A stretch of 55,156 nucleotides of DNA, taken from contig JAFDZF010000006.1 of the NCBI GenBank assembly GCA_018267055.1, positions 1 through 55,156 on the forward strand, written 5' to 3'. The DNA is from Bacteroidota bacterium (GTDB taxonomy: Bacteria; Bacteroidota; Bacteroidia; Flavobacteriales_F; PHOS-HE28). Numbering within the stretch: the stretch's first letter is position 1; the number at the start of each line of letters is the position of its first letter. Below the pieces are notes generated by a model. The model worked only from the letters and a program-made list of their open reading frames with translations, made no database searches and was not told the DNA's origin. Positions 3,118-22,107 of the stretch are shown here, in pieces. Made by a program: the position numbers and the translations under genes.

Positions 3118-3129
3118 ACAGCACCGACC

Positions 3130-5559: not shown

Positions 5560-6455
5560 TGCACCGAACACCCTTCCCCATGGACACCAAGGCGATCCTT
5601 CTTTCCCTCCCGCTGCTCGCGTTCCTCCCGAGCTGCAACGCCCAGATCAAGCACGCACGCACCGCCACCGTCCGGATCGACGGCAACTGCGGCATGTGCG
5701 AAGCCACCATCGAAAAGGCGGCCGACGTGAAGGCCGAGGCGCACGCCGATTGGGACAAGGACACCAAGCAGGCCGTGATCGTCCTCGACACCACCCGCAC
5801 GACGCTGGACGCCGTGCTGCGCCGGATCGCGAACGCGGGCTACGACAACGAGCGCTACCTCGCCCCCGACGCGGCCTATGCCGGGCTTCCCGCATGCTGC
5901 CGGTATGAGCGGAGCAGGCGCGCACCGGAGCCGGAAGGAACGCCGGCCGGCCATGATGCGCACGGCCACCGACACACGGCGGGCACGGAGCAGGCCGCGA
6001 ACGCGGCACCCTCCGACCAAAGCCCGCAGCAGGAACTGAACGCGGTGTTCGCGGCCTACTTTTCCATGAAAGATGCCCTGGTGGCCTCCGATGCGGCGCT
6101 CGCCAGGCAGCGCGGCGCGGCCTTCGATGAGGCCGTGCACAGCGTGCCCATGGACAAGCTCGATCCGAAGCTGCACACCCTGTGGATGGACGTGATGCCC
6201 GGCCTGATGGATCCCGCGCACCTGATCTCCGGCACGACCGACCTCAAGAAGCAACGCGATGCCTTCGCGCAGCTCACCACCCCGATGAAGCGGCTGGCCC
6301 AGGGCTTCCCCACAGGCCTGACGATCTATGTGGACCACTGCCCCATGTACAACGGCGGCTCGGATTGGCTGAGCACCGACCAGGCGATCAAGAACCCCTT
6401 CTTCGGCAGCGCCATGCTGGGCTGCGGCAGCGTGTCCGGGACCATCGAACCGTGA
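5559..6455 (+). CDS. HMA plus DUF3347 lipoprotein, periplasmic copper binding
   Basis: About 298 residues. The type II signal sequence ends in LPSC, so the product is probably a periplasmic lipoprotein. An HMA-like domain follows with the site CGMC (GNCGMCEATIEKA), then a His-rich linker (HDAHGHRH), then a DUF3347 domain with the copper-protein-like ending HCPMYNGGSDWL. DUF3347 is also found in CusB-type efflux and copper resistance proteins. The ATG at 5559 overlaps the copA stop; the ATG at 5580 gives a tighter lipoprotein signal and is equally possible. A role as periplasmic copper carrier between CopA and the oxidase is inferred from the order of genes. Confidence 0.8.
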   Translation: MHRTPFPMDTKAILLSLPLLAFLPSCNAQIKHARTATVRIDGNCGMCEATIEKAADVKAEAHADWDKDTKQAVIVLDTTRTTLDAVLRRIANAGYDNERYLAPDAAYAGLPACCRYERSRRAPEPEGTPAGHDAHGHRHTAGTEQAANAAPSDQSPQQELNAVFAAYFSMKDALVASDAALARQRGAAFDEAVHSVPMDKLDPKLHTLWMDVMPGLMDPAHLISGTTDLKKQRDAFAQLTTPMKRLAQGFPTGLTIYVDHCPMYNGGSDWLSTDQAIKNPFFGSAMLGCGSVSGTIEP

Positions 6456-8725
6456 TCGCGGTGAGGGAGCGCAGCACATCCAAGGGCGTACAGCGGACCA
6501 TCACGGCCCTGGCCTTCCTGCTGCTGGCAACGGTGGATACCGACGCACAGTACGGCGACATCTCCACCGGCCAGGCGGGACCGGCCTCACCGGGGGTCAC
6601 CCGCTACGAGCTGTCCATCGCCGATACGGTGGTGGACTACAGCGGGAAGGAGCGCCAGGCGATCGCGGTGAACGGGAGCATCCCCATGCCCACGCTCACG
6701 TTCACCGAAGGCGATACCGCCCTGATCGTGGTGCACAACCGCATGCGGGTGGAGACCTCGCTGCACTGGCACGGCCTCATCCTCCCCAACGAGATGGACG
6801 GCGTGCCCTACCTCACCACGGCCCCTATCCCGCCCGAGGGGACGGTCGCGTACAAGTTCCCGCTGGTGCAGAGCGGCACCTACTGGTACCACTCCCACAC
6901 GCAGCTGCAGGAACAGGTGGGCATGTACGGTGCCCTCATCATCCACAAGCGCGATGAGCCGCCCATGCCTGAGCAGGTGATCATCCTGAGCGACTGGACC
7001 GATGCCGACCCTGCACAGGTGCACCGCCGCCTGCACAATGCCAACGACTGGCCCGCGATCCAGAAGCACCGCGTGCGGCCCGGCAGTGTGCAGAGCTACC
7101 TGGACGCCATCAAGGCCGGCCGGTTCGGCACCAAGGTCACCAACGAGTGGAAGCGCATGCGTGCCATGGACGTCAGCGACGTCTATTACGAACGCTTCCT
7201 CGCCAATGGCCGCCCCGAGGCCGAAGCCCCGGAGCTGGCCGCCGGGCAGCGCGTGCGGCTGCGGGTCATCAATGGCAGCTCGTCCACCTATTTCTGGATC
7301 AGCTATGCCGGCGGGCGGATGGCCGTGGTGGCGAGCGACGGCATGGACGTGGAGCCCGTGGAGGTGGACCGCTTCATCATGGGCGTGGCCGAGACCTACG
7401 ACGTGCTCGTGGACCTGCCCGCGGACAGCACCGCGTACGAGCTGCTGGCCACGTCGGAGGACCGCACCGGATCGGCCTCGCTGTGGCTCGGCAGCGGCGT
7501 GCGCCAGCTCGACGACCCGCTGGGGCCACTGGACTACTTCGCGGGCATGGGCATGATGAACGACATGATGCGCATGGACGGCTCCATGGACGACATGGGC
7601 ATGCGGATGGGCCTGCAGCGGATGGACATGAACGCCGTGATGTACCCCGAGGTCCAGGGCCCGCCGGAGGGCGGACAGGAAGCACAAGCCGGCCACCGAA
7701 CACCCGATGGCCCCCTCACGCTCAACTATGGCATGCTGCGCTCACCCGTGCCCACCACGCTCCCCCCCGGCCCGGTGCGCGAGCTGCGCTTCGAGCTCAC
7801 CGGCAACATGGACCGCTACCTGTGGACCATCGACAACAAGACCGTCTCCGAGGCCGACCGCATCCTGATCAGGAAAGGCGAGAACCTGCGCATCATCCTC
7901 CACAACAACTCGATGATGCGCCACCCGATGCACCTGCACGGCCACTTCTTCCGCGTGCTCAACGGCCAGGGCGACCACGCGCCGCTGAAGAACGTGCTGG
8001 ACATCATGCCGATGGAGACCGACACCATCGAGTTCGCGGCCACCGAATATGGCGACTGGTTCTTCCACTGCCACATCCTCTACCACATGATGAGCGGCAT
8101 GGGACGCGTGTTCAGCTATACGGACAGCCCGCCGAACCCCCAGCTCCCCGATGCGCCGAAGGCCTGGCGCTCCTTCCTGAAGGACGACCGTTACACGCAC
8201 CTCATGTTCCAGAACGACTTCGCCACCAACGGCAACGACGGCGAGGCCATGCTCCAGGGGAAACGATGGAAGTGGCAGGCCGAGTGGCGCCTGGGCTACA
8301 TGGCCCACCACGGGTACGAGATGGAGACCCACCTCGGTCCCTTGCTGGGGCCACGGCAATGGTGGTTCCCCTACATCGGCTTCGACTGGCGCGACCGCAC
8401 GCCCGAAATGGGCGGGATGCCCGAGGACGACCTCTTCGGCCAGGGCAACACCAAGGACCGCCGCGCGGCCCTCTGCCTCGGGATACAGTACACGCTGCCC
8501 ATGCTCTTCGTGCTCGATGCCCGCATCGACTCGGACCAGCGCGTGCGCGCGCAGCTCATGCGCGAGGACATCCCCCTGACCCCCCGCGCGCGCCTCGACC
8601 TCATGGGCAACAGCGACCTGGAATACATGGCCCGCGTGCGCTACATCCTCACGAAGGAACTGGCCCTCACGTCGCATTACGACAGCGACATGGGCTTCGG
8701 CGTAGGCCTCGCGTTCACCTACTGA
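6452..8725 (+). CDS. multicopper oxidase (CopA/CueO type) with C-terminal CopB-like domain
   Basis: About 757 residues. A signal peptide ends near TDAQ. The oxidase has all four copper-ligand blocks: HWHGLILPN (about 105), WYHSHTQLQ (about 148), HPMHLHGHFF (about 492) and HCHILYHMMSGM (about 539, with the T1 copper Met). A Met-rich stretch (MGMMNDMMRMDGSMDDMGMRMG) is typical of Cu(I) oxidases. From about residue 570 the tail resembles an outer-membrane CopB-like beta barrel (alternating strands ending GVGLAFTY). It probably oxidises periplasmic Cu(I). The GTG at 6452 overlaps the previous stop (GTGA); the GTG at 6461 is an alternative. Confidence 0.87.
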   Translation: MIAVRERSTSKGVQRTITALAFLLLATVDTDAQYGDISTGQAGPASPGVTRYELSIADTVVDYSGKERQAIAVNGSIPMPTLTFTEGDTALIVVHNRMRVETSLHWHGLILPNEMDGVPYLTTAPIPPEGTVAYKFPLVQSGTYWYHSHTQLQEQVGMYGALIIHKRDEPPMPEQVIILSDWTDADPAQVHRRLHNANDWPAIQKHRVRPGSVQSYLDAIKAGRFGTKVTNEWKRMRAMDVSDVYYERFLANGRPEAEAPELAAGQRVRLRVINGSSSTYFWISYAGGRMAVVASDGMDVEPVEVDRFIMGVAETYDVLVDLPADSTAYELLATSEDRTGSASLWLGSGVRQLDDPLGPLDYFAGMGMMNDMMRMDGSMDDMGMRMGLQRMDMNAVMYPEVQGPPEGGQEAQAGHRTPDGPLTLNYGMLRSPVPTTLPPGPVRELRFELTGNMDRYLWTIDNKTVSEADRILIRKGENLRIILHNNSMMRHPMHLHGHFFRVLNGQGDHAPLKNVLDIMPMETDTIEFAATEYGDWFFHCHILYHMMSGMGRVFSYTDSPPNPQLPDAPKAWRSFLKDDRYTHLMFQNDFATNGNDGEAMLQGKRWKWQAEWRLGYMAHHGYEMETHLGPLLGPRQWWFPYIGFDWRDRTPEMGGMPEDDLFGQGNTKDRRAALCLGIQYTLPMLFVLDARIDSDQRVRAQLMREDIPLTPRARLDLMGNSDLEYMARVRYILTKELALTSHYDSDMGFGVGLAFTY

Positions 8726-8735
8726 CGCCCCCGGC

Positions 8736-9800
8736 TCAGGCGTGGGCCAGCTTCTCCAGCTTGCGCCGGTCCACGATGCGGATGCCCCGCCCCTGCGTAT
8801 CGATGATGCCGTCCTCCTTCAGCTCGGTGAGGCAGCGGATGAGCGATTCCGTGGCCGTGCCCACGATGCTGGCCAGGTCCTCCCGGCTGATGCGCACGCC
8901 CAGGTCGTCCGCCTCGCCTTCGGCGGCATAGCGCTCATGCACGCGCAGGAGCGACTGGGCCACGCGCTGGCGCACGCTGGCATAGGCGAGCTGCAACAGG
9001 TGCTGTTCCTTGTCCTTCACATCGCGCGCGAGCATCCGGATGAAGCGGATGCTCACATCGCGATCGCGGTAGAGCAGCGCCAGCAGGTCCTCCCGCGGCA
9101 CCAGCGCCACCTCGCATTCCTCCATGGCCTCGGCGGTCTCCATGGCGCGGCCGTTCTCCAGCAGGCCCATGTAGCCCACGAAATCACCCGGACCGTTGAG
9201 GCCGGTGACGAACTCCTTGCCATCGTTGTTGATCTTGTAGGTGCGCACCTTGCCACGGATGATGTACGGCACCTGGCGCAGCTCGTCGCCCTCGTGGAAG
9301 AGCACCTCTTTCACGGCCAGCCGGCGCGTGCGCCGGTCGCGTCCCACGTCCTTCAAGGCCTCCAGGCCGCGTGCCTGGTCCATGAACCGGGTCAATCCGT
9401 CATAGCCGTCGTCGAAGCCCTTGCGGAAAAGCTCGCTGCGCCGCAGGCGGCCTTCGATGGCCTTGAGCAGCTCGCCCTCCTCGAAGGGTTTGGTGAGGTA
9501 GTCGTCGGCGCCCAGCTCCATGCCTTTGCGCACCTCGCCGCGCTCGGCCTTCGCGCTGAGGAAGATGAAAGGCACCTCGGCGGTGGCGGGCGACCGGCCC
9601 AGCAGGTGGAGCACGCCGTAGCCGTCCAGCTCGGGCATCATGATGTCGCACAGCACCAGGTCGGGCACTTCCTTGCGCGCCATTTCCACGCCGCGCCGGC
9701 CGTTCTCGGCCTTGAGCACGCGGTAATCGGCCAGCTCCAGTATCTCGGCCGTATTCTCGCGCATGTCCGCGTCGTCCTCGATGAGCAGGATGGTCTTCAT
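8736..9800 (-). CDS. fused response regulator: receiver domain plus Crp/Fnr DNA-binding module (FixJ-FixK-like)
   Basis: 354 residues. Residues 1-120 are a complete receiver domain: acidic pair Asp9/Asp10, phospho-acceptor Asp52 in LCDIMMP, Ser82, Lys104 in LTKPF. About 155-250 is a cyclic-nucleotide-like beta-barrel, then a dimer helix, then a Crp-type helix-turn-helix (about 305-335) with recognition helix TATESLIRCL, in which Glu318 and Arg322 align with the DNA-reading Glu and Arg of Crp/Fnr proteins. There is no Fnr-type N-terminal Cys cluster, so it is not itself an Fe-S oxygen sensor. Its ATG overlaps the kinase stop (ATGA). It is the likely regulator of the CTGAC-N4-GTCAG sites in this window (inference). 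Confidence 0.9.
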   Translation of the reverse strand: MKTILLIEDDADMRENTAEILELADYRVLKAENGRRGVEMARKEVPDLVLCDIMMPELDGYGVLHLLGRSPATAEVPFIFLSAKAERGEVRKGMELGADDYLTKPFEEGELLKAIEGRLRRSELFRKGFDDGYDGLTRFMDQARGLEALKDVGRDRRTRRLAVKEVLFHEGDELRQVPYIIRGKVRTYKINNDGKEFVTGLNGPGDFVGYMGLLENGRAMETAEAMEECEVALVPREDLLALLYRDRDVSIRFIRMLARDVKDKEQHLLQLAYASVRQRVAQSLLRVHERYAAEGEADDLGVRISREDLASIVGTATESLIRCLTELKEDGIIDTQGRGIRIVDRRKLEKLAHA

Positions 9801-11041
9801 GGATGGAGGTGTTGGGGGAGTTCCACGGTAAAGACGGTATGGCCCGGACGGCTGGTGTAGCTGATGGAGCCGCCCATCAGGTCCAGGTAGCGCTTCACGA
9901 TGTTGAGGCCGAGGCCCGTGCCCTGCACGGTGGTGGCGTTGCCGCCCCGGAAGAACCGCTCGAAGAGGTGCTGCTGGTCCTCCTGCGGGATGCCGATGCC
10001 CTCGTCCTTCACCGTGATGGTGAGGCGCCCATCGGCGATGGCCGTGCGTAGCTCCACGTGCGCGTTCTCGGGGGAGTACTTCACCGCGTTGGTCACCAGG
10101 TTGGTGATGACGTTGCCGAACATCTGGCGGTCCAGCGTGACGGTGCGCGAGGCCCCTTCATGATCGTAGCCGATGGCCTGTCCCGGCTTGGCCAGCGGGC
10201 GCAGCTCCTCGATCAGCTCGATGCACTGGTGCACCACGTCCATCTCCACGGGCGCGCATTCGATGAGGCCCTGGTCGATGCGCTCCAGCGAAAGGAACTC
10301 GTTCAGCATGGCGGTCATCTCGCGCACCTTGTTGCGGATGCGCGTCACATGGCGGCCCACCTTCTCATTGGCCGCGTCGCCGGAGTGCCGCGCGATGAGG
10401 TCCACGCTGCTCATGATGGTGCTGAGCGGCGTGCGGAACTCGTGGCTGGCCATGGAGACGAAGCGGCTCTTCAGCGCGTGCAGTTCCTTCTCCTTCTCCA
10501 GGGCTTCGCGGACGCTCTGCTCGGCCTTGCGCAGCTCGGCGGTGCGCTGCTCCACGCGGTCCTCCAGCTCCTGGTTGGTGCGTTGCAGCTCCTCCTCGGC
10601 CTGGCGCCGGAGGGTGATGTCGGTCACCAGCCCCATCACGTAGCGGTCCTCGTCCACGGTGAAGTGGTTGAGGCTGACCTCCACCGGGAACACGCTGCCA
10701 TCCTTGCGCCGTCCCCAAAGGTCCATGCCGATGCCCATGGAGCGCTGCACCGGGCGGGCGTTGTAGGCCGCGCGATGGCCGGCGTGCCGGGCGCGCACGG
10801 CGTCGGGCAGCAGCACTTCGATGCGCTCGCCCACGAGCTCGTTCTCCCCATGGCCGAACATGGCGTTCAGCCGGGGGTTGTGCATGAGGATGGTCCCCTT
10901 GGTGTCCACCACCACCAGTCCCTCCGCCGCCGTGGAGAAGAGCAGCTCGCAGACCCGGGCGAGGTCCACATTGCCGAACGCGTTCCCAGGTCCTTTGCGC
11001 ATCCCGGAAAGGTAAGCGTACCCGCGCGCTCCAAGGCTCAT
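9797..11041 (-). CDS. PAS domain sensor histidine kinase, FixL-like
   Basis: Up to 414 residues, no transmembrane helix, so cytoplasmic. One PAS domain (about 25-145), a coiled coil (about 145-190), the His phosphorylation box FVSMASHEFRTPLS (His200), and a HATPase domain with NLVTNAVKYS, DEGIGIP and GTGLGLNIVKRY. The PAS segment PDAVRARHAGHRAAY lines up with the FixL haem-ligand helix, but the FixL regulatory Arg position is Met (MGIGMDLWGRRKDG). The ATG at 11041 overlaps the dioxygenase stop by ATGA; an internal ATG at 11002 preceded by TACCTTTC is an alternative. It overlaps the fused regulator gene and presumably phosphorylates that protein. Confidence 0.88.
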   Translation of the reverse strand: MSLGARGYAYLSGMRKGPGNAFGNVDLARVCELLFSTAAEGLVVVDTKGTILMHNPRLNAMFGHGENELVGERIEVLLPDAVRARHAGHRAAYNARPVQRSMGIGMDLWGRRKDGSVFPVEVSLNHFTVDEDRYVMGLVTDITLRRQAEEELQRTNQELEDRVEQRTAELRKAEQSVREALEKEKELHALKSRFVSMASHEFRTPLSTIMSSVDLIARHSGDAANEKVGRHVTRIRNKVREMTAMLNEFLSLERIDQGLIECAPVEMDVVHQCIELIEELRPLAKPGQAIGYDHEGASRTVTLDRQMFGNVITNLVTNAVKYSPENAHVELRTAIADGRLTITVKDEGIGIPQEDQQHLFERFFRGGNATTVQGTGLGLNIVKRYLDLMGGSISYTSRPGHTVFTVELPQHLHP

Positions 11042-11532
11042 GGCCGGTGGGTGCGCCCCGGATGCTCATGGTACACGCGCCACTTGCGGAGCGGCCCCGC
11101 ATGCAGCTCCAGGGTGACCGCCGGACCGGGACCCACATTGACGAAGCGGTGCGCACCGGCCCCTTCGAGCAGGAGATCGCCACCGCCCGGCAGCAGGTAG
11201 GTCTCCTGCACCAGCTGCGGCGCGTGCCCGGGCAGCAGCCGATAGCGCTCCTCCACCACCTCGCCCATCAAGGCACGTATCCAGGTGGAATGGCCGTCGT
11301 GGCCATGGATGCTGGTCTGCTGGCCCGGGCCGTAGCAGACCACCAGCAGCTCGGAACCGGTGCCGCGGTACAGGCAGGTACGCGTATAGTGGCGGGTGTT
11401 CCAGCGGAGGTAAGGGCTCAGGTCGTTCAGGTCCGCGCGGTAGCGCTCCAGGATCCGCGCATGGTCCGTGGCGCCGTCCTTGGAGAGCTCGTCGATGAGC
11501 TCCGCAACGGTATGGATGGCGTCAGGACGCAT
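11038..11532 (-). CDS. cysteine dioxygenase family protein (thiol dioxygenase)
   Basis: 164 residues, cupin fold. The iron-binding triad is visible: His76 and His78 in SIHGHDGHSTW and His128 in GAHRFVN. Family members use Fe(II) and O2 to oxidise a thiol to a sulfinate, classically L-cysteine to cysteine sulfinic acid. The gene opens the operon that continues into the PAS kinase and the REC-Crp regulator (ATGA overlaps at both joints). Its promoter carries one of the CTGAC-N4-GTCAG sites. The substrate is not certain; 3-mercaptopropionate or another thiol is possible. A role tied to oxygen status is suggested by the operon. Confidence 0.8.
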   Translation of the reverse strand: MRPDAIHTVAELIDELSKDGATDHARILERYRADLNDLSPYLRWNTRHYTRTCLYRGTGSELLVVCYGPGQQTSIHGHDGHSTWIRALMGEVVEERYRLLPGHAPQLVQETYLLPGGGDLLLEGAGAHRFVNVGPGPAVTLELHAGPLRKWRVYHEHPGRTHRP

Positions 11533-11556: not shown

Positions 11557-11564
11557 CGAACCTA
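11557..11564 (-). promoter_or_regulatory. promoter box of the dioxygenase-kinase-regulator operon
   Basis: On the minus strand it reads TAGGTTCG, a perfect TAnnTTCG. Its last G (position 11557) lies 36.5 bp from the centre of the palindrome at 11586-11601 and 25 nt upstream of the start codon. Confidence 0.65.
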
Positions 11565-11585: not shown

Positions 11586-11601
11586 GCTGACGGTCGTCAG
11601 C
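11586..11601. promoter_or_regulatory. palindromic operator GCTGAC-GGTC-GTCAGC
   Basis: Sixteen-bp inverted repeat with arms GCTGAC/GTCAGC around four bases, the architecture of a Crp/Fnr-family site. It overlaps the stop codon of the safE-like gene and lies 54 bp upstream of the dioxygenase start. Its placement implies that the kinase/REC-Crp operon controls itself. It is one of four such sites in the window. Confidence 0.75.
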
Positions 11602-12349
11602 GCAGGGCGTCCCATGTTCCGGAGGCGTCCATGGCGGAAGTGGATGGATGGCAAGGCGTGGCCTGCGCAGGAAAAGCAGGCGTTGTGGGGCTGACGAACG
11701 GGATGCCCAACCCGAGCCCGCGAAGGATGAGGAGCACGGCCATGAACGAGACCATCACCGGCGATGCCCGGCGCAGGAGCGTACGAAAGCGCGGGCCGAG
11801 CAGGTTCCCGCCCAGGCGAACGGCGATGAGGGCGGGCCAGGTGCCCAGGGCGAACAGGGCCATGAAGCCCATGCCCCCCGTCACGCTCCCGGCGGCCGCG
11901 GCGGCGATGAGCGCCATGTACACCAGCCCGCAGGGCAGGAGGCCGTTCAGCGCGCCGGTGAGGAAGAGCGCCTCCGGTGCCGTGCGCCGCAGGTTGCGCG
12001 CAAGGATGCCGCGCGACCGGCCGATGCCGAGGGCGATGCGTCCGGTGGGATCCCACCGGCGGAACACGCGCGGAACGAGCAGCACGGTGAGCAGCAGCAC
12101 GCCCGCGGCCACGGACACGCCCTGCTGCAAGTGGGCGATCCGCAGGCCCCAGCCGAAGGCCCCCACCGCCGCGCCCAGCAGCACGTAGGTCGCCAGCCGG
12201 CCGCCGTTCAGCAATAGCGCCGCGGCCCAGCGTGCGCCGCGGCCGGGACCCGTGCGCGGCACGGCCAGCGCGATGGGGCCGCACATGCCGATGCAATGCG
12301 CGCTGCCCGCGATACCCAGCACGAAGGCGGCCGGCAGGAACGCGTTCAT
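11597..12349 (-). CDS. TauE/SafE-like membrane protein of the cbb3 oxidase assembly cluster
   Basis: 250 residues with about six hydrophobic helices. Two motifs fit the cytochrome-biogenesis-type members of this superfamily (DsbD/CcdA-like relatives): AHCIGMCGPIALA near the N terminus and NGLLPCGLVYMAL in the middle, each with a membrane cysteine. These are usually encoded with ccoGHIS in Bacteroidota and are thought to handle copper for cbb3 oxidase. It is the last gene of the cco operon; its ATG overlaps the fixH stop (ATGA). The last 30 or so residues are hydrophilic and poorly conserved. Confidence 0.85.
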   Translation of the reverse strand: MNAFLPAAFVLGIAGSAHCIGMCGPIALAVPRTGPGRGARWAAALLLNGGRLATYVLLGAAVGAFGWGLRIAHLQQGVSVAAGVLLLTVLLVPRVFRRWDPTGRIALGIGRSRGILARNLRRTAPEALFLTGALNGLLPCGLVYMALIAAAAAGSVTGGMGFMALFALGTWPALIAVRLGGNLLGPRFRTLLRRASPVMVSFMAVLLILRGLGLGIPFVSPTTPAFPAQATPCHPSTSAMDASGTWDALR

Positions 12350-12783
12350 GGCACCACGATCCGGTCCTCCGTGCAATAGGTGACACCCCTCGCGCTCCAG
12401 TCCAGCACCGCGTTGTACCGCCCCGGCAGAAGGCCGATGAACTGGGCCAGGAAGGTCCCGCTGGTGTCGGCACGCACGTCCAGCACCCGATCGGCCGCGG
12501 GATCGTTGGGGCGCACCAAGGTCAGGCGCCCATCGATCGGCGCACCTTTCAGCTCGTCCGGGAACCGCAGGCGGAGCCCGCCGCCCGCGGCATGGATGTC
12601 CACCTCCGCGGAAAGCGCCAGCGCACGGGCGCGCCGTTCGATGTGGTCCTGGTACTTCAGCTCCTGCTCGTAGTACTGTTCGGTCACCAAGGGCTCGGGG
12701 TTGCGCGAGGCCATGATGACGAACCACGTCATGAGCCCTGCGAACGCGATCAAGGTCAGGGCCGTTCCTTTTCCCCAGTTCAT
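12346..12783 (-). CDS. fixH: FixH/CcoH family protein
   Basis: 145 residues. One N-terminal membrane helix (GTALTLIAFAGLMTWFVIMA) is followed by the family signature NPEPLVTEQYYEQELKYQ and a periplasmic beta-rich domain. FixH/CcoH interacts with the cbb3 oxidase and is needed for its stability or assembly in other bacteria. ATGA overlaps join it to ccoG upstream and the safE-like gene downstream, so it is firmly in the operon. Confidence 0.87.
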   Translation of the reverse strand: MNWGKGTALTLIAFAGLMTWFVIMASRNPEPLVTEQYYEQELKYQDHIERRARALALSAEVDIHAAGGGLRLRFPDELKGAPIDGRLTLVRPNDPAADRVLDVRADTSGTFLAQFIGLLPGRYNAVLDWSARGVTYCTEDRIVVP

Positions 12784-14216
12784 GTGCCGGTGTGTTCAAG
12801 CGGTCCGACGAACGAAGTGCTCACCTTCTCCAACAGGCGATCCCCCGCATAGATGCCGATGATGACCTTGGTCTTCATGCCGGGCGGCCGGTCATCACCG
12901 AGGATGATGAAGAGCTCGCCCTGAGCCAGCTCCCCTGCCTTCACTTCCATGGCGCGGCCCACGAGCTGGATCTCACCGTCCACATTGAGCAGCGCCAGCC
13001 GCAGGGTGAGGTCGTGGTCCGTCTTGTTCTTGGTCTTGAGGGTATACAGGTTGCTGATCCGCCCGTCGGGCCGTTCCTGGAAGAGCAGCCCCGGCGTGCG
13101 CAGCACGGTGCTGTCGGTGTCGGTGCGCAGGGCGATGAGGGTGACGAGCACGCCCACGATGAGCACGAGCACCGCGGCATAGGCCTTCATCCGCAGGTCC
13201 ACGCGGAAGGGCTGCTTGTCCGCGATCCCCGCTTCGCTGGCGTAGCGCACCAGGCCCTTCGGCAGACCGACGGACACCATCATGTGGTCGCAAGCGTCGA
13301 TGCAGGCCGTGCAGTTCACGCATTCGAGCTGGGTGCCGTTGCGGATGTCGATGCCCGTGGGGCATACGTGCACGCAGGCCCTGCAATCGATGCAGTCGCC
13401 CTTGCCCACGGCCGCGCGGTCCTCCCCTTTCCGGAAAAGCCCCCGCGGATCGCCGCGCACGTGGTCGTAGGCGATCACCACGCTCTTGCGGTCGAGCAGC
13501 ACGCCTTGCAGGCGCCCATAGGGGCATACCGTGGTGCAGGCCTGCTCGCGGAAGAAGGCGAAGTTGGCATAGAACACGCCGCTGAAGACGCACATGGCGA
13601 TGAGCCCGCCTGTATGCGCCGCCGCCGGTTCGCGGACGATGCGCAGCAGCTCATCGCTGCCGATGAGGTAGGCCAGGAAGGTATTGCCGATGAGGAAGCT
13701 GATGCCGAAGAAGAGCGCGTGCTTCAAGGCCTTGCGGCCCGCCTTGCCCGCCGTCCAGGGCGCCTTGTCCAGCGCCTGCTGCTGCTTCCAGTCGCCCTCG
13801 ATGGCGTATTCGATCCGGCGGAACACCTGCTCCATGAACACCGTCTGGGGACAGGCCCAGCCGCAGAACAGCCGCCCGAAGGCCACGGTGAACAGGGCGA
13901 TGAACACGATGAAGGCGATGAAGCCGAGCACGAAGAGCAGGAAGTCCTGCGGCCAGAAGACCTGGCCGAGGAGGACGAAGCGCCGCTCCAGGATGTCGAT
14001 GAGCAGCACGGGCCGCCCGCCGATGCGGAGGAAGGGCCCGGCGAACAGGAGGGCGAGCAGGGCATAGCCCACCACCCGGCGCCGGCGCGTGAACCGCCCA
14101 TGCCCTTTCTTGGGGTACAGCCATACCCGCCGGCCGCGCTTGTCCACCGTGCTGATGGAGTCGCGGTAGCTCTCATCGCGCTTCGCGTGGGCCGGGGGAA
14201 CGGGGCGGTCGGTCAT
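12780..14216 (-). CDS. ccoG: cbb3 oxidase accessory iron-sulfur protein CcoG/FixG
   Basis: 478 residues. Membrane helices are followed by the membrane motif LFCGWACPQTVFMEQVFRRIEY, then two ferredoxin-type 4Fe-4S motifs: CIDCRACVHVCP and CVNCTACIDACD. A periplasmic Ig-like C-terminal domain (FixG_C) ends the protein. CcoG is known to reduce copper during cbb3 oxidase maturation. The ATG at 14216 overlaps the ccoP stop by ATGA; the open frame continues upstream inside ccoP but without family similarity. Confidence 0.93.
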   Translation of the reverse strand: MTDRPVPPAHAKRDESYRDSISTVDKRGRRVWLYPKKGHGRFTRRRRVVGYALLALLFAGPFLRIGGRPVLLIDILERRFVLLGQVFWPQDFLLFVLGFIAFIVFIALFTVAFGRLFCGWACPQTVFMEQVFRRIEYAIEGDWKQQQALDKAPWTAGKAGRKALKHALFFGISFLIGNTFLAYLIGSDELLRIVREPAAAHTGGLIAMCVFSGVFYANFAFFREQACTTVCPYGRLQGVLLDRKSVVIAYDHVRGDPRGLFRKGEDRAAVGKGDCIDCRACVHVCPTGIDIRNGTQLECVNCTACIDACDHMMVSVGLPKGLVRYASEAGIADKQPFRVDLRMKAYAAVLVLIVGVLVTLIALRTDTDSTVLRTPGLLFQERPDGRISNLYTLKTKNKTDHDLTLRLALLNVDGEIQLVGRAMEVKAGELAQGELFIILGDDRPPGMKTKVIIGIYAGDRLLEKVSTSFVGPLEHTGT

Positions 14217-15391
14217 CGCGTGGCGACCGCCGTGGCGGCGGCCAGGCTGTCGGAAGCGGTGCCCGTGCTGTCGGACGCTGCGGGCTTCCACAGGTCGCCC
14301 TGCGGCGGCTTCTGCGTGGCCGGCCCCGTGCCCTGGAGGCTCAGGATGTAGTTGGCCAGCGCGGCGATCTCGGGCGGCTTCAACTGGGCCTTCCAGCTCA
14401 TCATGCCTTTCTCCGGCACGCCGTACTTGATGGTGCGGAAGATGTTGTTCACCCCGCCGCCATGCAGCCAGTAGGCATCGGTCAGGTTGGGCCCCACGGA
14501 GTTCTCGGACCCCGCGGCGTCGGCCCCGTGGCACGGCGTGCAGTTCTGCGCGAAGAGGGAGCGGCCACTTGCGAGCACGCCCGGGTCGGTGGTGGCGGTC
14601 ACCGTGTTCTCGTCCACCGTGTTGCGCAGCGTGGCCATGTAGGAAGCGATGTCGGTACCGGCCTGTGCCATCTCGTTCTTGTACTCGGTGCCCTGGTCGG
14701 GCCAAGCGTCGATCACGTGGGCACCCACGAGGTACACCACGCTCCAGCCGATGGTGCCGTAGAAGAGCCATACCCACCAAGGTGGCAGCACGTTGTCCAG
14801 CTCCTGGATGCCGTCGTAGGCGTGATGCAGCAGGATGTCCTGCTCCTTCGCCATGGGCACCTGCCGGGTGAGGCGGCGCCACACCCGCTCATGCCAGGCG
14901 GGGCCTGCCACCGCCGGCGCGGCCTCCTTCGGCTCCGCCTCCCCGATGACCGCCCGCATGAGCCCGCGCGTCAGGCCCAGCTGCACCAGGAGGATGATGA
15001 AGAGGAGCACGTTGATGATCACCAGCCACCAGAACGACTGGTACAGCGTGGGGCCTTGCCGATCCCCCAGGTAGGCCTGTGCCTCCGCGGGATCCGCGGC
15101 GAAGAGCAGCAGCGGCACCAGCACGAGGCCACGCATGCCGCCCCGGGTGAAGCGCTTCACCCAGCCGCCGGAACCCGCCAGCGTGCGCATGATGCCCGCG
15201 AGCGAGACGATGAGGATGCCCTGGACCACCGCCATCACGGTCAACGCGTGGACCATGGTCATGTCCACCTGCACCAGCGGCGTGTCCGCGGCCGGGGGTG
15301 CGGCGGCTTCCTGGGCCAGCAGCGGCCAGCAGGTGGACGCGGCGAGCAGCAGTGCCGCTGCGCGGGAAAGGACGTGGCGATCAATGATCAT
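14213..15391 (-). CDS. ccoP: cbb3 oxidase subunit CcoP, one-haem form
   Basis: 392 residues. The N-terminal signal or first helix is followed by further hydrophobic helices, then the FixP_N-like segment LDNVLPPWWVWLFYGTIGW and a single cytochrome c domain with CTPCH (about residue 280) and the distal Met region GMMSWK. Proteobacterial CcoP carries two CXXCH motifs; only one is present here. It passes electrons to CcoO/CcoN. The tail after LSLQG is low complexity. It overlaps ccoQ by 11 bp and ccoG by 4 bp. Confidence 0.9.
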   Translation of the reverse strand: MIIDRHVLSRAAALLLAASTCWPLLAQEAAAPPAADTPLVQVDMTMVHALTVMAVVQGILIVSLAGIMRTLAGSGGWVKRFTRGGMRGLVLVPLLLFAADPAEAQAYLGDRQGPTLYQSFWWLVIINVLLFIILLVQLGLTRGLMRAVIGEAEPKEAAPAVAGPAWHERVWRRLTRQVPMAKEQDILLHHAYDGIQELDNVLPPWWVWLFYGTIGWSVVYLVGAHVIDAWPDQGTEYKNEMAQAGTDIASYMATLRNTVDENTVTATTDPGVLASGRSLFAQNCTPCHGADAAGSENSVGPNLTDAYWLHGGGVNNIFRTIKYGVPEKGMMSWKAQLKPPEIAALANYILSLQGTGPATQKPPQGDLWKPAASDSTGTASDSLAAATAVATR

Positions 15392-15587: not shown

Positions 15588-17711
15588 TCAGTGCGCGGGA
15601 TCGGCGGCCGGGCGCGCCTTGATGTCGGTGCCCAGGCGTTGCAGGTAGGCGATCACCGCGATGATCTCGCGGTCGCTGGGCACGTCGATACCGGCCTTCT
15701 TCAGCCCCGCCCGGATGCTGTCGCCCTGCGCCAGGAGGTCGGCATTGGCCTTCGCCGGGAAGTCCGCCGCATAGGGCACGCCCATGGTGCGCATGGCCTC
15801 GATCTTCACCCGGGTGGTGCTCGTGTCCAGCACGTCGGTGAACAGGTGCGGGTAGGCCGGCATCAGCGAGCCGGGGCTCATGCTCGTGGGATCGAGCATG
15901 TGGTAGTAATGCCAGCTGTGCGGGTATTTGCCGCCCACGCGCAGCAGGTCGGGACCGGTGCGCTTGCTGCCCCATTGGAAGGGATGGTCATAGACGAACT
16001 CGCCCGCCTTGGCGTATTCCCCGTAGCGCTCGGTCTCGCTGCGGAAGGGGCGCACCATCTGGCTGTGGCAGGTGTAGCAGCCCTCGCGCACGTAGATGTC
16101 GCGCCCTTGCAGCTCCAGCGGTGTGTAGGGATGCACGCTCGCGATGGTGGGCACGTTGGTCTTCACCAGGAACGTGGGCACGATCTCCAGCACGCCGCCG
16201 ATGCCCACCACCACCAGGCTGAGGACCAGCATCTGCACGGGCCGGCGCTCGATCCACCGGTGCCAATGCCCGCCTTCGCCCACCGCGATCCGCTCCAGCG
16301 CGGGCGCTTCGGCGTCCTCGTTCGCCACCAGGCGGCCGGCGCGCACCGTGCGCCACACGTTGTACACCATGATGAACGCGCCGATGAGGTAGAGGCCGCC
16401 GCCCACGGCGCGCAGCCAGTAGGCGTACTTGATCTCCAGCAGCGTGTCCAGGAAGTTCTTGTAGACCAGGTAGCCGTCGGGCGTGAACTGCTTCCACATC
16501 AGGCTCTGGAAGAAGCCCGCGAAATAGAGCGGCACCGCATAGAAGAGGATACCCAGCGTGCCCAGCCAGAAATGCGCGTTGGCGAGCTTGCGCGAATAGA
16601 GCTGCGTGCCGAAGAGGCGCGGCACCAGCCAGTAGACCATGCCGAAGGTCATGAAGCCGTTCCACCCGATGCCGCCGATGTGCACGTGCGCGATGATCCA
16701 ATCGGTGAAATGCGCGATGGCGTTGATGGATTTCAGGCTCAGCAGGGGCCCCTCCAGCGTGGCCATGCCGTAGCACGTCACCGCCACCACGAAGAACTTG
16801 AGCACGGGATCCTCCCGCACGCGGTCCCACGCGCCGCGCAGGGTGAGCAACCCGTTGAGCATGCCGCCCCAGCTGGGCGCGATGAGCATGATGCTGAACA
16901 CCGTGCCCAGCGATTGCGCCCACTCGGGCAGCGCGCTGTAGAGCAGGTGGTGCGGGCCCGCCCAGATGTAGAGGAAGATGAGCGCCCAGAAGTGGATGAT
17001 GGAGAGCTTGTAGCTGTACACCGGGCGGTTGGCGGCCTTGGGCAGGAAGTAGTACATGAGGCCCAGGTAGGGCGTGGTGAGGAAGAAGGCCACGGCGTTG
17101 TGCCCGTACCACCACTGCACCAGCGCGTCCTGCACGCCCGCGTACCAGCTGTAGCTCTTGGTGAGCGAGATGGGCAGCTCGATGCTGTTCACGATGTGCA
17201 GCATGGCCACGGTGGCCCACGTGGCGATGTAGAACCAGATGGCCACGTAGAGGTGCCGCTCGCGCCGCTTCAGGATGGTGCCGAACATGTTGATGCCGAA
17301 CACCACCCACACCAGCGTGATGGCGATGTCGATGGGCCATTCCAGCTCGGCGTACTCCTTGCCCGTGGTCATGCCCAGCGGCAGGGTGATGGCCGCGGCG
17401 ACGATGATGAGCTGCCAGCCCCAGAAGTGAATCCGCCCCAGCACATCGCTGAACATGCGGGCCTTCAGCAGGCGCTGCAGGCTGTAATAGGCGCCGGCGA
17501 AGATGCCATTGCCCACGAAGGCGAAGATGACCGCGTTGGTGTGCAGGGGACGCAGCCGGCCGAAGGCGAACCAGGAGGCCAGGTTGAGCTCCGGCATCAC
17601 CAGCTGCAAGGCCACGAGCAGCCCCACGAGCATGCCCACCACGCCCCAGAGGATGGTGACGAACAGGAAGTCGCGGACGATGCGGTTGTCGTACTGGAAA
17701 CGTTCGGTCAT
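15588..17711 (-). CDS. ccoNO: fused cbb3 oxidase catalytic subunit CcoN-CcoO
   Basis: 707 residues. The first about 470 are CcoN: many membrane helices with haem/CuB ligand segments such as LHTNAVIF, YGHNAVAFFLTTPYLGLMYY and IAHVHIGGIGWNGFM. The rest is CcoO, a membrane-anchored cytochrome c with CYTCHSQMVRPF and the downstream Met region SLMPAYPHL. Proteobacteria have these as two genes; fusion is common in Bacteroidota. This is the O2-reducing, proton-pumping core of the high-affinity terminal oxidase. Gaps of 3 bp separate it from ccoS and ccoQ. Confidence 0.95.
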   Translation of the reverse strand: MTERFQYDNRIVRDFLFVTILWGVVGMLVGLLVALQLVMPELNLASWFAFGRLRPLHTNAVIFAFVGNGIFAGAYYSLQRLLKARMFSDVLGRIHFWGWQLIIVAAAITLPLGMTTGKEYAELEWPIDIAITLVWVVFGINMFGTILKRRERHLYVAIWFYIATWATVAMLHIVNSIELPISLTKSYSWYAGVQDALVQWWYGHNAVAFFLTTPYLGLMYYFLPKAANRPVYSYKLSIIHFWALIFLYIWAGPHHLLYSALPEWAQSLGTVFSIMLIAPSWGGMLNGLLTLRGAWDRVREDPVLKFFVVAVTCYGMATLEGPLLSLKSINAIAHFTDWIIAHVHIGGIGWNGFMTFGMVYWLVPRLFGTQLYSRKLANAHFWLGTLGILFYAVPLYFAGFFQSLMWKQFTPDGYLVYKNFLDTLLEIKYAYWLRAVGGGLYLIGAFIMVYNVWRTVRAGRLVANEDAEAPALERIAVGEGGHWHRWIERRPVQMLVLSLVVVGIGGVLEIVPTFLVKTNVPTIASVHPYTPLELQGRDIYVREGCYTCHSQMVRPFRSETERYGEYAKAGEFVYDHPFQWGSKRTGPDLLRVGGKYPHSWHYYHMLDPTSMSPGSLMPAYPHLFTDVLDTSTTRVKIEAMRTMGVPYAADFPAKANADLLAQGDSIRAGLKKAGIDVPSDREIIAVIAYLQRLGTDIKARPAADPAH

Positions 17712-17714
17712 CGC

Positions 17715-17876
17715 TTACTTGGTTTCGTGCGGGGCATCGGGCGGGCCGTCCAGGATGCGGACGGCCGGTGAGCGGTCATCGTCGTACTGCCCCCGCCACA
17801 CCGCCCACACGAACGCCACCAGGAACACGCCCGCTACGAGCGTGCTGGCGGAAAGGAGAATGAAGGTCGCGCTCAC
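17715..17876 (-). CDS. ccoS: cbb3 oxidase assembly protein CcoS
   Basis: 53 residues starting at GTG (17876). One membrane helix (FILLSASTLVAGVFLVAFVWAV) is followed by the CcoS-type motif WRGQYDDDRSPAVRIL. CcoS is needed for cofactor insertion into cbb3 oxidase in other bacteria. It is the first gene of the cco operon. The start lies 22 nt after a promoter box (GACTTTCG) that has an operator 58.5 bp further upstream. Confidence 0.88.
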   Translation of the reverse strand: MSATFILLSASTLVAGVFLVAFVWAVWRGQYDDDRSPAVRILDGPPDAPHETK

Positions 17877-17897
17877 GTTATCCTGCCTTTGGTGCGG

Positions 17898-17905
17898 CGA
17901 AAGTC
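17898..17905 (-). promoter_or_regulatory. promoter box of the cco operon
   Basis: On the minus strand it reads GACTTTCG (one mismatch to TAnnTTCG). Its last G, at 17898, is exactly 58.5 bp from the centre of the palindrome at 17949-17964, a class-I-like Crp/Fnr spacing. Confidence 0.6.
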
Positions 17906-17948
17906 CCCCGGCCCTCCGGCCTGCAGGATGAGGCCGGTCACCGGCCGG

Positions 17949-17964
17949 ACTGACTTTCGTCAGT
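17949..17964. promoter_or_regulatory. palindromic operator ACTGAC-TTTC-GTCAGT between the cco operon and SDR gene
   Basis: Perfect 16-bp inverted repeat with four central bases, in the divergent spacer between ccoS and the SDR gene. Its centre (17956.5) is 58.5 bp from the ccoS box and 36.5 bp from the SDR box, so one site could activate both directions. Confidence 0.8.
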
Positions 17965-17985
17965 GCGCCTGTCGCCGCGACCCGG

Positions 17986-17993
17986 TTGTTTCG
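17986..17993 (+). promoter_or_regulatory. promoter box of the SDR gene
   Basis: TTGTTTCG (one mismatch to TAnnTTCG). The last G is 36.5 bp from the centre of the operator at 17949-17964, and the ATG follows 20 nt later. Confidence 0.55.
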
Positions 17994-18013
17994 TGCACTG
18001 AACACCTTGGAAC

Positions 18014-18763: not shown

Positions 18764-18779
18764 GCTGACGATCGTCAGC
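18764..18779. promoter_or_regulatory. palindromic operator GCTGAC-GATC-GTCAGC before the universal stress protein gene
   Basis: A fully palindromic 16 bp including the centre. It lies just after the SDR stop and 71 bp before the universal stress protein ATG. Its centre (18771.5) is 58.5 bp from the promoter box ending at 18830. Confidence 0.78.
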
Positions 18780-18822: not shown

Positions 18823-18830
18823 CATTTTCG
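18823..18830 (+). promoter_or_regulatory. promoter box of the universal stress protein gene
   Basis: CATTTTCG (one mismatch to TAnnTTCG), ending 19 nt before the ATG and 58.5 bp from the operator centre. Confidence 0.55.
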
Positions 18831-18849: not shown

Positions 18850-19650
18850 ATGGCGCACCTGCTCATCCCCACCGACCTCAGCGACCTGTCCTTGAAAGCG
18901 GCCCTCTTCGCCGTGGACCTCTTCGGCGCCGAGGGCAACACCTTCACGCTCCTGCATACGCGGTCCAGCTATGGGCTGTCGTCCTCGCTCGTGCCCGGGG
19001 CGATCGACCTCCAGCGCGTGGAGCACGAGGGGCTCGCAGAGCTTGAGCAGCGGCTGCGGGCCATGCGCGACATGACCGGTGCCCAGGTGCGCCGCATGCG
19101 GGCGCTGGGCCCGCTGAAGGACGTGGTGCGGGAAGCGGCCACCCTCCATGACATCGACCTGGTGGTGATGGGCACCGAGGGCCGCAGCCCCGTCTCGTAC
19201 ACCGGCACCCGCACCACCGACGTCATGCTCGGCGCCCGCGTGCCGGTGCTGGAGATCCCGGTGGAACTGGAACGCCTTTCCGTCCGCCGCATCCTCTTCG
19301 GCGACGATGGCCGGGCCATCGGCCCGCACCTGCTGGATCCCCTGGCCACCCTGGCACGGTTCACCGGTGCCCGGATCACCGTCCTGCACATCGCCACGGC
19401 GCGTTCCCGTTCCCGGGCGGACAATACGGCGGCCTTCGCGCGTGCCTTCACCGGCATCGAGCATGCGTCGATCACCCTGGACAGCAATGATGTGGAACAA
19501 GCCTTGCTCGGCCTGGCCGTGCGCGAAGGCGTGGACCTCATCGCCGTGCTGCACCGGAACAGGCCCCTGCTGGAACGCCTCTTCAGGCCCAGCACCAGCA
19601 AGGCCGTGGCCCTGCACAGCCGGCTTCCCGTGCTCGTCCTGCCCTCCTGA
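18850..19650 (+). CDS. tandem universal stress protein (UspA family)
   Basis: 266 residues, two Usp domains. The first starts HLLIPTDLSDLSLKAALFAVDLF and ends with VVMGTEGRSP; the second begins about residue 138 (RRILFGDD) and ends LHSRLPVLVLPS. The ATP-binding GxxG pattern is not clear in either half. Universal stress proteins often rise under low oxygen or growth arrest. The gene has its own site of the local operator family, linking it to the oxidase block. Convergent with fixI, 11 bp apart. Confidence 0.87.
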   Translation: MAHLLIPTDLSDLSLKAALFAVDLFGAEGNTFTLLHTRSSYGLSSSLVPGAIDLQRVEHEGLAELEQRLRAMRDMTGAQVRRMRALGPLKDVVREAATLHDIDLVVMGTEGRSPVSYTGTRTTDVMLGARVPVLEIPVELERLSVRRILFGDDGRAIGPHLLDPLATLARFTGARITVLHIATARSRSRADNTAAFARAFTGIEHASITLDSNDVEQALLGLAVREGVDLIAVLHRNRPLLERLFRPSTSKAVALHSRLPVLVLPS

Positions 19651-19661
19651 TCGGGAGCGCC

Positions 19662-22058
19662 TCAGGCCGGCGCGTGGCCGGACGGCTCGCGATCGGCCAG
19701 CAGCGTGGCCACCGTGACGAAGCCCACCACCGTGACCGAGCTCAGGGGCATCAGGATGGCCGCGATGAGCGGGGTGAGGTGACCGCTCACCGCGAACGAT
19801 ACGCCGGTGATGTTGTAGCACAAGGAGATGCCCAGGCTGGCGAGGACGATGCGCCGGGCACGCCGGGCCATGCGGAGGAAATGCGGCAGCGCCACGATGG
19901 CGCCTGCATCCATGATCGCATCGCTCGCCGGCGTGAGCGCGGCGCTCGTTTCCGTCACGGTGATGCCCACGTCGCTCTGCATCAGCGCGCCCGCGTCGTT
20001 CAGGCCATCGCCCACCATGACCACCCGGTGGCCTTGCGCCTGTTCCTGCTGGATGAGGCGCGCCTTGTCCAGGGGAGAGCACCCGGTGCGCACCAGCGCG
20101 CCCTGGAACGGCCCGGCCAGGTCGCGGTCCACCTGGGCGTCGCCGGTGAGCAGCGCCACGCGCATGTGCCGCCGCAAGCGGTTCACCGCCTCCACGATCC
20201 CGGTGCGCGCGCGCTTCGTGACGACGAAATGCCCCACATGCGCCCCATTGATGCCGATGTGCACGTGGGCCTCCCCGTTCGTGCGCGGCCGTTCGCTCCC
20301 GGCGCAGAACGCGGCGGACCCGATGCGCACGGGGAAGCCGTCGACCAGGCCCAGGATGCCCGCGCCGGGATGCTCCCGGGCCTCGTCCACTTCCGTCAAC
20401 GGCTCCTTCAGCTCCCGGTGGAGAACGGCGCTCAGCGGGTGCGTGCTGCTGTGCGCGAGCGACCGCACCAGGGACCGGTCGCGCGCGGAAAGGCGGGGAC
20501 CCTCCCAACGCACGTCGTACGCCTCCCGTGCCGTGAGCGTGCCCGTCTTGTCGAAGACCACCATGTCCGTGCGGGCCAGGTGCTCCACCACTTCGGCATC
20601 GCGCAGGAAAAGGCCGCGCCGCCCCATCAGGCGCATGGCATGCCCATAGGCGAACGGCATGCTCAACGCCAGCGCGCAGGGGCAGGCCACGATGAGCACC
20701 GCCGTCACCACGGGCCATACCTGCGACGTGTCCTTGCCCCACCAATAGAGGCCGGCGCCGGCGGCGATCAGCAGCACGACGATGGTGAAGCGCCGGGCCA
20801 CCTGGTCCATCAGGCGCGGCATGGCCGGCCGTACACGCGCACCGCCGTGCTCCGCCCACAGCTGTTTCAAGCGGCTCTCCGAGAAGGTGCGCAGCACCTC
20901 CAGCTCGATGAGCGGACCGCGCTGGCGACCGCCCGCCCGGATGGTATCGCCCACCGAACGGCGCACCGTGAGCGGCTCGCCCGTGATGAAGCTGTTGTCG
21001 ATGTGCGCCGTGCCCGCGCGCAGCACAGCGTCCACGGGCACCAGCTCCTGGTCGCGCACCACGATGCGGTCGCCCGGGAGCAGGTCCGCCACCTGTGCCG
21101 GTTCCTCCCCGTTCGCGGTCTTGCGGAGCACCACGAGGGGCAGGAAATCCTCCAGCGCCCGGTCGAACCGCAATGCGCGGTAGGTCCGCGCCTGGTACCA
21201 GCGGCCGATGAGGAGGAAGAACAGGAGGCCGGCCAGCGAATCGAAATAGCCCGGCCCGCTCCCGGCGATCACGTCCCAGAGGCTGCGCGTCCATAGAGCC
21301 ACGATTCCCAGGGCGATGGGCTGGTCGATGTTCACCTGCCGCGCGCGCAGACCCGCCCAGGCGCTCCGGAAGAAATCGGCGCTCAGGAAGAAGACCACCG
21401 GCAGGGAGAACAGCACCGCCATCCATTGCAGCCCGGCCTTGATGCCCGCCTCGGTATCGGCCCCCAGGTATTCCGGGAAGCTGAACATCATGGTGTTGCC
21501 GAAGATGAAGCCGGCCACGCCCAGCCGCACGTACAGCAGGCGGGGCACCCGCGCTTCACCGCCCTGCCGGCGCATGCCGCCGGTGAGCTGGGGACCATAG
21601 CCGATCCGCCGCAGCAGCGCCACCAGCTCCGTCAGGCCCATGCGGTCCTCGTGGAAGGTGACCGTGACCTCCTTGTCCGTGAACGAGACGCGCGAGCGGA
21701 TCACCGCCGGGGCGATACGGTGCAGGTTCTCCAGCAGCCAGATGCACGAGCTGCAATGCATCTGCGGGATGTGGAGGCGGACGCGCATGATGCCATCCTC
21801 CGCGAACTCCACGATGCGCTCCCGCACCGTCGCGGAAGCGAACAGTTCCACGCGCGGCTCGTCCACCCCGGCGCCCTGCTTCAGGCCAGGCCGCTCACCC
21901 AGTTCGTAATAGGTGCACGAGCCGCTCTCCTGGAGCAGGTCGTACACGGCCTCGCAGCCCGCGCAGCAGAAGTCCTTGCCGTCGTATGAGCGATGCTCCT
22001 CCGCGCACGGATCCCCGCAGTGGTAGCAGGCCACGTCCACCTGACCGGTCCTTCCCAT
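19662..22058 (-). CDS. fixI: copper-transporting P-type ATPase for cbb3 oxidase (FixI/CcoI)
   Basis: 798 residues. It has the N-terminal extension typical of FixI/CcoI with CYHCGDPC and FCCAGC (residues 11-34), an HMA-like domain with MHCSSC (about 100), the membrane CPC in IVACPCALALS, the phosphorylation site VFDKTGTLT and GDGLNDAGALMQSD. CcoI supplies copper to CcoN rather than giving resistance, matching the cco genes nearby. It is usually beside ccoS; here the SDR and stress genes lie between. The ATG at 22058 lies 4 nt after a promoter box and 35 bp from an operator; upstream in-frame starts would cover those sites. Confidence 0.92.
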   Translation of the reverse strand: MGRTGQVDVACYHCGDPCAEEHRSYDGKDFCCAGCEAVYDLLQESGSCTYYELGERPGLKQGAGVDEPRVELFASATVRERIVEFAEDGIMRVRLHIPQMHCSSCIWLLENLHRIAPAVIRSRVSFTDKEVTVTFHEDRMGLTELVALLRRIGYGPQLTGGMRRQGGEARVPRLLYVRLGVAGFIFGNTMMFSFPEYLGADTEAGIKAGLQWMAVLFSLPVVFFLSADFFRSAWAGLRARQVNIDQPIALGIVALWTRSLWDVIAGSGPGYFDSLAGLLFFLLIGRWYQARTYRALRFDRALEDFLPLVVLRKTANGEEPAQVADLLPGDRIVVRDQELVPVDAVLRAGTAHIDNSFITGEPLTVRRSVGDTIRAGGRQRGPLIELEVLRTFSESRLKQLWAEHGGARVRPAMPRLMDQVARRFTIVVLLIAAGAGLYWWGKDTSQVWPVVTAVLIVACPCALALSMPFAYGHAMRLMGRRGLFLRDAEVVEHLARTDMVVFDKTGTLTAREAYDVRWEGPRLSARDRSLVRSLAHSSTHPLSAVLHRELKEPLTEVDEAREHPGAGILGLVDGFPVRIGSAAFCAGSERPRTNGEAHVHIGINGAHVGHFVVTKRARTGIVEAVNRLRRHMRVALLTGDAQVDRDLAGPFQGALVRTGCSPLDKARLIQQEQAQGHRVVMVGDGLNDAGALMQSDVGITVTETSAALTPASDAIMDAGAIVALPHFLRMARRARRIVLASLGISLCYNITGVSFAVSGHLTPLIAAILMPLSSVTVVGFVTVATLLADREPSGHAPA

Positions 22059-22062
22059 GGAC

Positions 22063-22070
22063 CGAAAGTG
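22063..22070 (-). promoter_or_regulatory. promoter box of fixI
   Basis: On the minus strand it reads CACTTTCG (one mismatch to TAnnTTCG). The last G (22063) is 36.5 bp from the operator centre at 22099.5. The ATG follows after 4 nt, so the mRNA may be nearly leaderless. Confidence 0.55.
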
Positions 22071-22091
22071 GACCACCCGGTCGGGGCGGGG

Positions 22092-22107
22092 ACTGACATC
22101 CGTCAGA
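22092..22107. promoter_or_regulatory. palindromic operator CTGAC-ATCC-GTCAG before fixI
   Basis: Ten conserved bases in two 5-bp arms around ATCC, 35 bp upstream of the fixI start. The outermost pair of the 16-bp form is mismatched (A/A). Spacing to the promoter box is identical to that of the dioxygenase operon and the SDR gene. Confidence 0.75.

Follow-up and report, generated by a model that had tools for sequence, protein, structure and literature searches.

A FixL-like PAS kinase and a receiver-Crp fusion protein as a probable O2-limitation switch of the cbb3 oxidase regulon in Bacteroidota

We analysed a 55,156-nt stretch of DNA from a Bacteroidota genome (the window) in which the gene of a soluble FixL-like PAS kinase directly precedes that of a protein joining a receiver to a Crp/Fnr module (REC-Crp). 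The two proteins probably constitute a two-component switch that activates the cbb3 oxidase regulon under O2 limitation, and they would represent an exchange of sensor on a conserved regulon. Evidence for this was observed in the gene order, the domains, the family-wide conservation, the operator and promoter geometry and the co-inheritance of kinase and regulator.

In the mechanism that we infer, the PAS kinase would bind heme and O2, would autophosphorylate in the absence of this ligand, most likely O2, and would pass the phosphate to Asp52 of REC-Crp. Phosphorylation, and not a nucleotide or an Fe-S cluster, would shift the Crp/Fnr dimer to the DNA-binding form; the dimer would then bind MTGAY-N4-RTCAK (here CTGAC-N4-GTCAG), centred near -41.5 or -63, and activate its own operon together with the cbb3 oxidase operon, fixI and universal stress genes. 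Across the class, these operators would be served either by the kinase/REC-Crp pair or by an Fnr-like regulator of a single domain, in most cases one with conserved cysteines; as both would act at the same sites, the pair would amount to a change of sensor while the regulon was conserved.

If so, this is a likely means by which O2 controls high-affinity respiration in a large group of bacteria that has been little studied, and a natural case of a Crp-fold activator apparently gated by phosphorylation. It would also illustrate cleanly how a regulon can change its sensor and retain its DNA sites, and the exchange is directly testable because there are families, and one genus, in which both versions occur.

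Results

Organization of the operon and its candidate targets

The genes and sites of the window are given in the table. The kinase and REC-Crp genes overlap by ATGA at 9797-9800 on the minus strand, as the earlier note had described, and the cysteine-dioxygenase-like (CDO) gene overlaps the kinase gene in the same way. Of the fetched relatives, only the closest (L018-L021, L024) have the CDO-like gene. The fusion of ccoN and ccoO is shared with most ccoO matches of the phylum sample (frames of at least 700 aa). The start of the ccoS ORF is listed too far upstream, because this ORF spans the operator. On the plus strand, a copper-handling group at 2692-8725, comprising an HMA protein, a CopA-type ATPase, a DUF3347 protein and a multicopper-oxidase-like ORF, converges on the REC-Crp gene.

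Table. Genes, predicted operators and -7-like elements of the window
Feature	Position	Strand	Remarks
REC-Crp regulator	8736..9800	-	Receiver (D52, K104), degenerate cNMP-binding fold, Crp/Fnr HTH with E318 and R322
Soluble sensor histidine kinase	9797..11041	-	FixL-type PAS, HisKA, HATPase_c; 414 aa
Cysteine-dioxygenase-like (CDO) gene	11038..11532	-	CDO_I, E 1e-11; first gene of the operon
-7-like element TAGGTTCG	11557..11564	-	22 nt downstream of the 11587 operator
Operator CTGAC-N4-GTCAG of the CDO-kinase-REC-Crp operon	11587..11600		Predicted autoregulation
fixH-like gene (target operon)	12346..12783	-	ORF, position, similarity to FixH of relatives
ccoG/fixG (target operon)	12780..14216	-	Fer4_18 and FixG_C; start set by eye inside ORF 12780-14882
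ccoP (target operon)	14213..15391	-	FixP_N and cytochrome c domains
ccoN-ccoO, fused oxidase subunits (target)	15588..17711	-	COX1 and FixO in a single ORF
ccoS	17715..18005	-	TIGR00847 above cut-off
-7-like element GACTTTCG	17898..17905	-	44 nt downstream of the cco operator
Predicted operator of the cco operon	17950..17963		
Predicted operator upstream of the USP gene	18765..18778		
-7-like element CATTTTCG	18823..18830	+	44 nt downstream of the USP operator
Universal stress protein (USP, target)	18850..19650	+	Weak similarity to the UspG model, under cut-off
fixI/ccoI, copper P-type ATPase (target)	19662..22058	-	Start set by eye inside ORF 19662-22637
-7-like element CACTTTCG	22063..22070	-	22 nt downstream of the fixI operator
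Predicted operator of fixI	22093..22106		

The PAS kinase

When the PAS domain of the kinase was compared with all PDB sequences, the top seven matches were FixL proteins (best E 1.6e-17), with DosP lower down. H86 of the kinase aligns with the proximal heme ligand of FixL (His200 of BjFixL); this His was kept in 65 of the 68 kinase relatives and was invariant in a separate alignment of 26 sequences. To this extent the kinase deserves the name FixL-like that the earlier note gave it. The name goes too far for the distal Arg, since the position of FixL Arg220 is held by Met, and for the FixL equivalog model of NCBIfam (NF041777), on which the kinase reached 100.8 bits against a cut-off of 850. 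Arg220 couples O2 to the FixL kinase, and its replacement by Met was counted against the proposed switch. Among the His-bearing relatives, this position holds R in 30, L in 13 and M in 12. Because it varies within the family, the assignment of O2 rests on context and not on residues alone; as far as can be judged in this way, O2 appears the likeliest signal of the window kinase.

A kinase with the same wiring that reads another heme ligand or a redox state (NO, CO, Fe(II)/Fe(III)) in place of O2 is unlikely, though it deserves some weight: the proximal His is kept, while Leu, Met or another residue stands at the Arg220 position in about half of the relatives, as Met does in the window. Against it stand the nature of the targets, a high-affinity oxidase and its copper ATPase, and the relatives that retain Arg.

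Of 13 PAS matches in the window genome, only the window kinase and a protein at C73:6539-8143 matched the FixL profile over its length. The latter, another FixL-like PAS kinase (L131), may feed the same regulator as the window kinase; its neighbourhood includes an Hsp20-like gene, genes of universal stress proteins and more operator sites. A structural comparison of the model of the window kinase gave matches mainly over the kinase core.

The REC-Crp regulator

The 354-aa REC-Crp protein contains Response_reg (E 6e-28), cNMP_binding (4e-19) and HTH_Crp_2 (1e-17) domains of Pfam, so that a complete receiver and a Crp/Fnr module are indeed carried by a single protein, as the earlier note had proposed. 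The cNMP-binding fold and the HTH_Crp domain, both above the Pfam cut-offs, place it in the Crp/Fnr superfamily. In an alignment of 81 sequences of the family, the active site of the receiver was found intact, with E8, D9 and D52 in 80/80 and K104 in 81/81; the acidic pair, the phospho-acceptor Asp and the Lys of a response regulator are thus all present. Glu318 and Arg322 of the recognition helix were invariant in the same 81 sequences.

The descent that the labels FixJ and FixK would imply was not borne out. The best NCBIfam scores of the receiver were those of PhoB/CseB/MtrA-type models, i.e., of the PhoB/OmpR type, and no FixJ model occurred among the 25 best for REC-Crp, whose output is cNMP_binding plus HTH_Crp_2 where a FixJ protein joins its receiver to a LuxR/NarL-type HTH; "FixJ receiver", as used in the earlier note, can therefore only name a role. 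The FixK model of NCBIfam (NF050806, Caulobacter type) gave REC-Crp 80.9 bits against a cut-off of 300 and was outscored by the CRP model, and the recognition helix is that of the single-domain Fnr-like regulators of the class (see below).

The effector side of the Crp module was found to be altered. The cAMP contacts of E. coli CRP, E72/R82/S83, correspond to Y210/M220/E221 in the window protein (aligned by eye); it lacks the residues of a cAMP receptor, and these positions vary across the family. The four-cysteine Fe-S set of Fnr was sought in the family alignment and was absent, in agreement with the earlier note; the sole conserved Cys is C51, adjoining the phospho-acceptor. The loss of the cAMP contacts together with the lack of a cysteine cluster fits gating of REC-Crp by phosphorylation. 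The cNMP-binding fold itself is intact, so its pocket could still bind a small molecule, with phosphorylation only tuning the response; we regard this as improbable, because other residues, which differ among family members, stand where CRP contacts cAMP.

A structure model of REC-Crp (mean pLDDT 78) was reasonable for the receiver and for the Crp part, with Crp and Fnr proteins as its Foldseek matches. The mutual arrangement of the two parts was poorly predicted (pTM 0.39), which was also counted against the switch.

Among the proteins of the window genome, only REC-Crp gave a full match to a Crp-type HTH. The second HTH_Crp_2 match, at C74, proved to be a MarR-like protein. At C100, a further protein with a cNMP domain gave no HTH_Crp_2 match, and its HTH is divergent ("TPEFLSTLRRR").

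Operators and promoter geometry

The palindrome CTGACNNNNGTCAG (CTGAC-N4-GTCAG) occurs in 7 copies in the genome (3.86 Mb, 203 contigs), while the reversed control occurs in none. Four of the 7 copies fall in the window, which makes up 1.4% of the genome (binomial p 1.4e-6); the claim that the regulator operon, the cco operon and fixI carry a common operator was thus upheld. In the 80 fetched REC-Crp loci (1.34 Mb), the more general form MTGAY-N4-RTCAK was found 197 times at spacer 4 as compared with 22-29 times at spacers 2, 3 and 5-8, and the wholly non-coding occurrences numbered 133 of the 197 as compared with 1-5. About half of the 197 operators precede ccoN, kinase, fixI, USP, CDO or REC-Crp genes. 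The TTGAY half-site was only mildly enriched. Ser321 was considered as a switch of specificity towards the TTGAT half-site; no such switch was found, and the Ser group favours ATGAY, weakly.

The -7 element of Bacteroidota, TAnnTTTG, was found downstream of the operators at distances of 22 nt (11 times), 44 nt (14 times) and 45 nt (8 times), against a mean of 0.38 per offset. In the window genome, we found the looser NAnnTTYG 22 or 44 nt downstream of each of the four window sites and of 10 of the 13 sites inspected; its background is 0.0009 per position, and the geometry was absent from the 15 other MTGAY loci that were fetched. With the usual placing of the -7 element, the spacings of 22 and 44 nt put the operators near -41.5 or -63. 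These are the positions from which Crp/Fnr proteins activate, and the 22 and 44/45 nt spacings would accordingly be read as FNR-type activator geometry. The exactness of these spacings, which Fnr-like systems share, argues against REC-Crp being a repressor of cco that is relieved by phosphorylation; the sign of control is not readable from sequence alone, and we nevertheless hold such repression to be very improbable.

Other sites with this geometry precede a universal stress gene, a pair of PPOX-family and acetyl-CoA hydrolase genes, an MBL-rhodanese gene, a small gene group that includes one for a thioredoxin-like protein, the gene of a baeRF-like protein, and genes of a small secreted protein and a quinone oxidoreductase (names by eye). 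This set of candidate targets outside the window would resemble hypoxia regulons elsewhere.

Distribution and pairing of kinase and regulator

The earlier note had proposed a survey of REC-cNMP-HTH fusions and their neighbours across Bacteroidota, and this was carried out on a phylum sample of 296 genomes, 73 of them from the class of the window. REC-Crp was found in 43 of the 296, every one in that class (43/73). A kinase lies directly upstream of REC-Crp in 70 of the 80 fetched loci, some of the others being cut by contig ends. A FixL-like PAS (E 1e-12 or better) was present in 40 of the 42 REC-Crp genomes other than that of the window and in none of the 30 class genomes without REC-Crp (Fisher p 3e-18, an overstated value as the genomes are not independent); in 37 of the 42 the PAS gene is on the same strand as REC-Crp and no more than 4 kb upstream of it. 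Both states, presence and absence of REC-Crp, are represented in one genus of the sample (g6). If kinase and REC-Crp work as a pair, they are expected to be gained or lost together repeatedly, and their co-inheritance supports the predicted phosphotransfer from one to the other.

Within the class, no association was obtained between REC-Crp and ccoO, which was present in 38/43 genomes with and 25/30 without REC-Crp (p 0.73). This was counted against the switch, and it implies that the REC-Crp regulon would be wider than cco.

Public annotation gives the members of the family no names beyond "response regulator" and "PAS kinase". We found the REC-Crp family described nowhere in the searchable literature, which mostly leaves out subscription papers, so that an earlier mention is possible.

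Two loci with additional features were noted. On plasmid pHsw1 of Hymenobacter swuensis (L164, 7059-9345), two genes of group III truncated hemoglobins stand beside the REC-Crp gene, and these genes adjoin fixI, cco and a universal stress gene. In a Bacteriovoracaceae single-cell genome (L031), kinase, REC-Crp, cco and fixI-like genes occur on a single contig, which suggests transfer outside Bacteroidota or contamination.

Single-domain Fnr-like regulators at the same operators

Where class genomes have ccoO and lack REC-Crp, their closest Crp/Fnr protein usually consists of a single domain (about 225-245 aa), and its gene stands at a distance of a few kb from ccoO. GTATES-x-IR is the predominant form of the recognition helix in these proteins and resembles that of REC-Crp. 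Of 17 such proteins, 14 have CxxC and additional cysteines around positions 53-59 and 106-113; these cysteines would hold an Fe-S cluster. The cco promoters of these genomes carry the same operator, often with a -7 element at 22 nt. The operator is therefore not specific to REC-Crp, which was counted against the switch. Whole-genome counts of MTGAY-N4-RTCAK likewise do not separate genomes with REC-Crp from those without, because the cco loci of the latter use the operator too.

That another Crp/Fnr protein serves the operators while REC-Crp acts elsewhere is the reading to which we give the least credence: the C100 protein exists and genomes lacking REC-Crp use the same operators, but that protein has the divergent HTH described above, the operon of REC-Crp itself bears the operator here and in many relatives, and the recognition helix of REC-Crp equals that of the Fnr-like proteins beside the same operators.

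In a tree of the Crp modules, REC-Crp (42 rows) and the single-domain proteins (17 rows) were split by a 100/100 branch, the tree being unrooted. REC-Crp thus appears as one clade and as one old fusion common in the class. The simplest reading would be a single fusion followed by later exchange between two sensor types on a stable regulon. We somewhat favour the view that the cbb3/hypoxia regulon of the class kept its operator and promoter geometry and exchanged its O2 sensor, a cysteine-cluster Fnr-like protein in some genomes and the FixL-like kinase with REC-Crp in others, phosphorylation replacing the ligand gate.

Comparison with known systems

The FixL-FixJ-FixK cascade is known from rhizobia and Caulobacter (PMC4999443). 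The present system resembles it in having a FixL-type PAS kinase, a phospho-receiver, a Crp/Fnr module without an Fe-S cluster, and cco and fixI as candidate targets. It differs in that receiver and Crp module form one protein, in the PhoB/OmpR-like and not FixJ-like receiver, in the operator (MTGAY-N4-RTCAK, with TTGAY just mildly enriched) and in the low FixL score (101 vs 850). The earlier note had spoken of a condensed Fix circuit; this holds for function, a FixL-like kinase with a receiver-Crp fusion apparently serving cco and fixI, and fails for ancestry, since one old fusion common in the class would not be a local condensation of the rhizobial cascade. In the hFixL-FxkR-FixKf cascade of Rhizobiaceae, a heme-kinase pathway also ends in a FixK-type regulator, but the phosphorylated FxkR and the Crp-type FixKf are separate proteins in series (PMC4999443), whereas the corresponding regulators are fused here.

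Replacement of an Fnr-like regulator at the same operators appears to be the better comparison. The single-domain Fnr-like systems (L144, L146, L147, L150-L163) share with REC-Crp the GTATES-x-IR helix, the operator, the -7 spacing and the cco/fixI neighbours; unlike it, they have no receiver, mostly bear cysteines, and occur in genomes with no FixL-like PAS kinase. With E. coli CRP, REC-Crp shares the fold of its C-terminal two thirds, and it differs from CRP by the added receiver, the lost effector contacts and a Thr at the position of Arg180.
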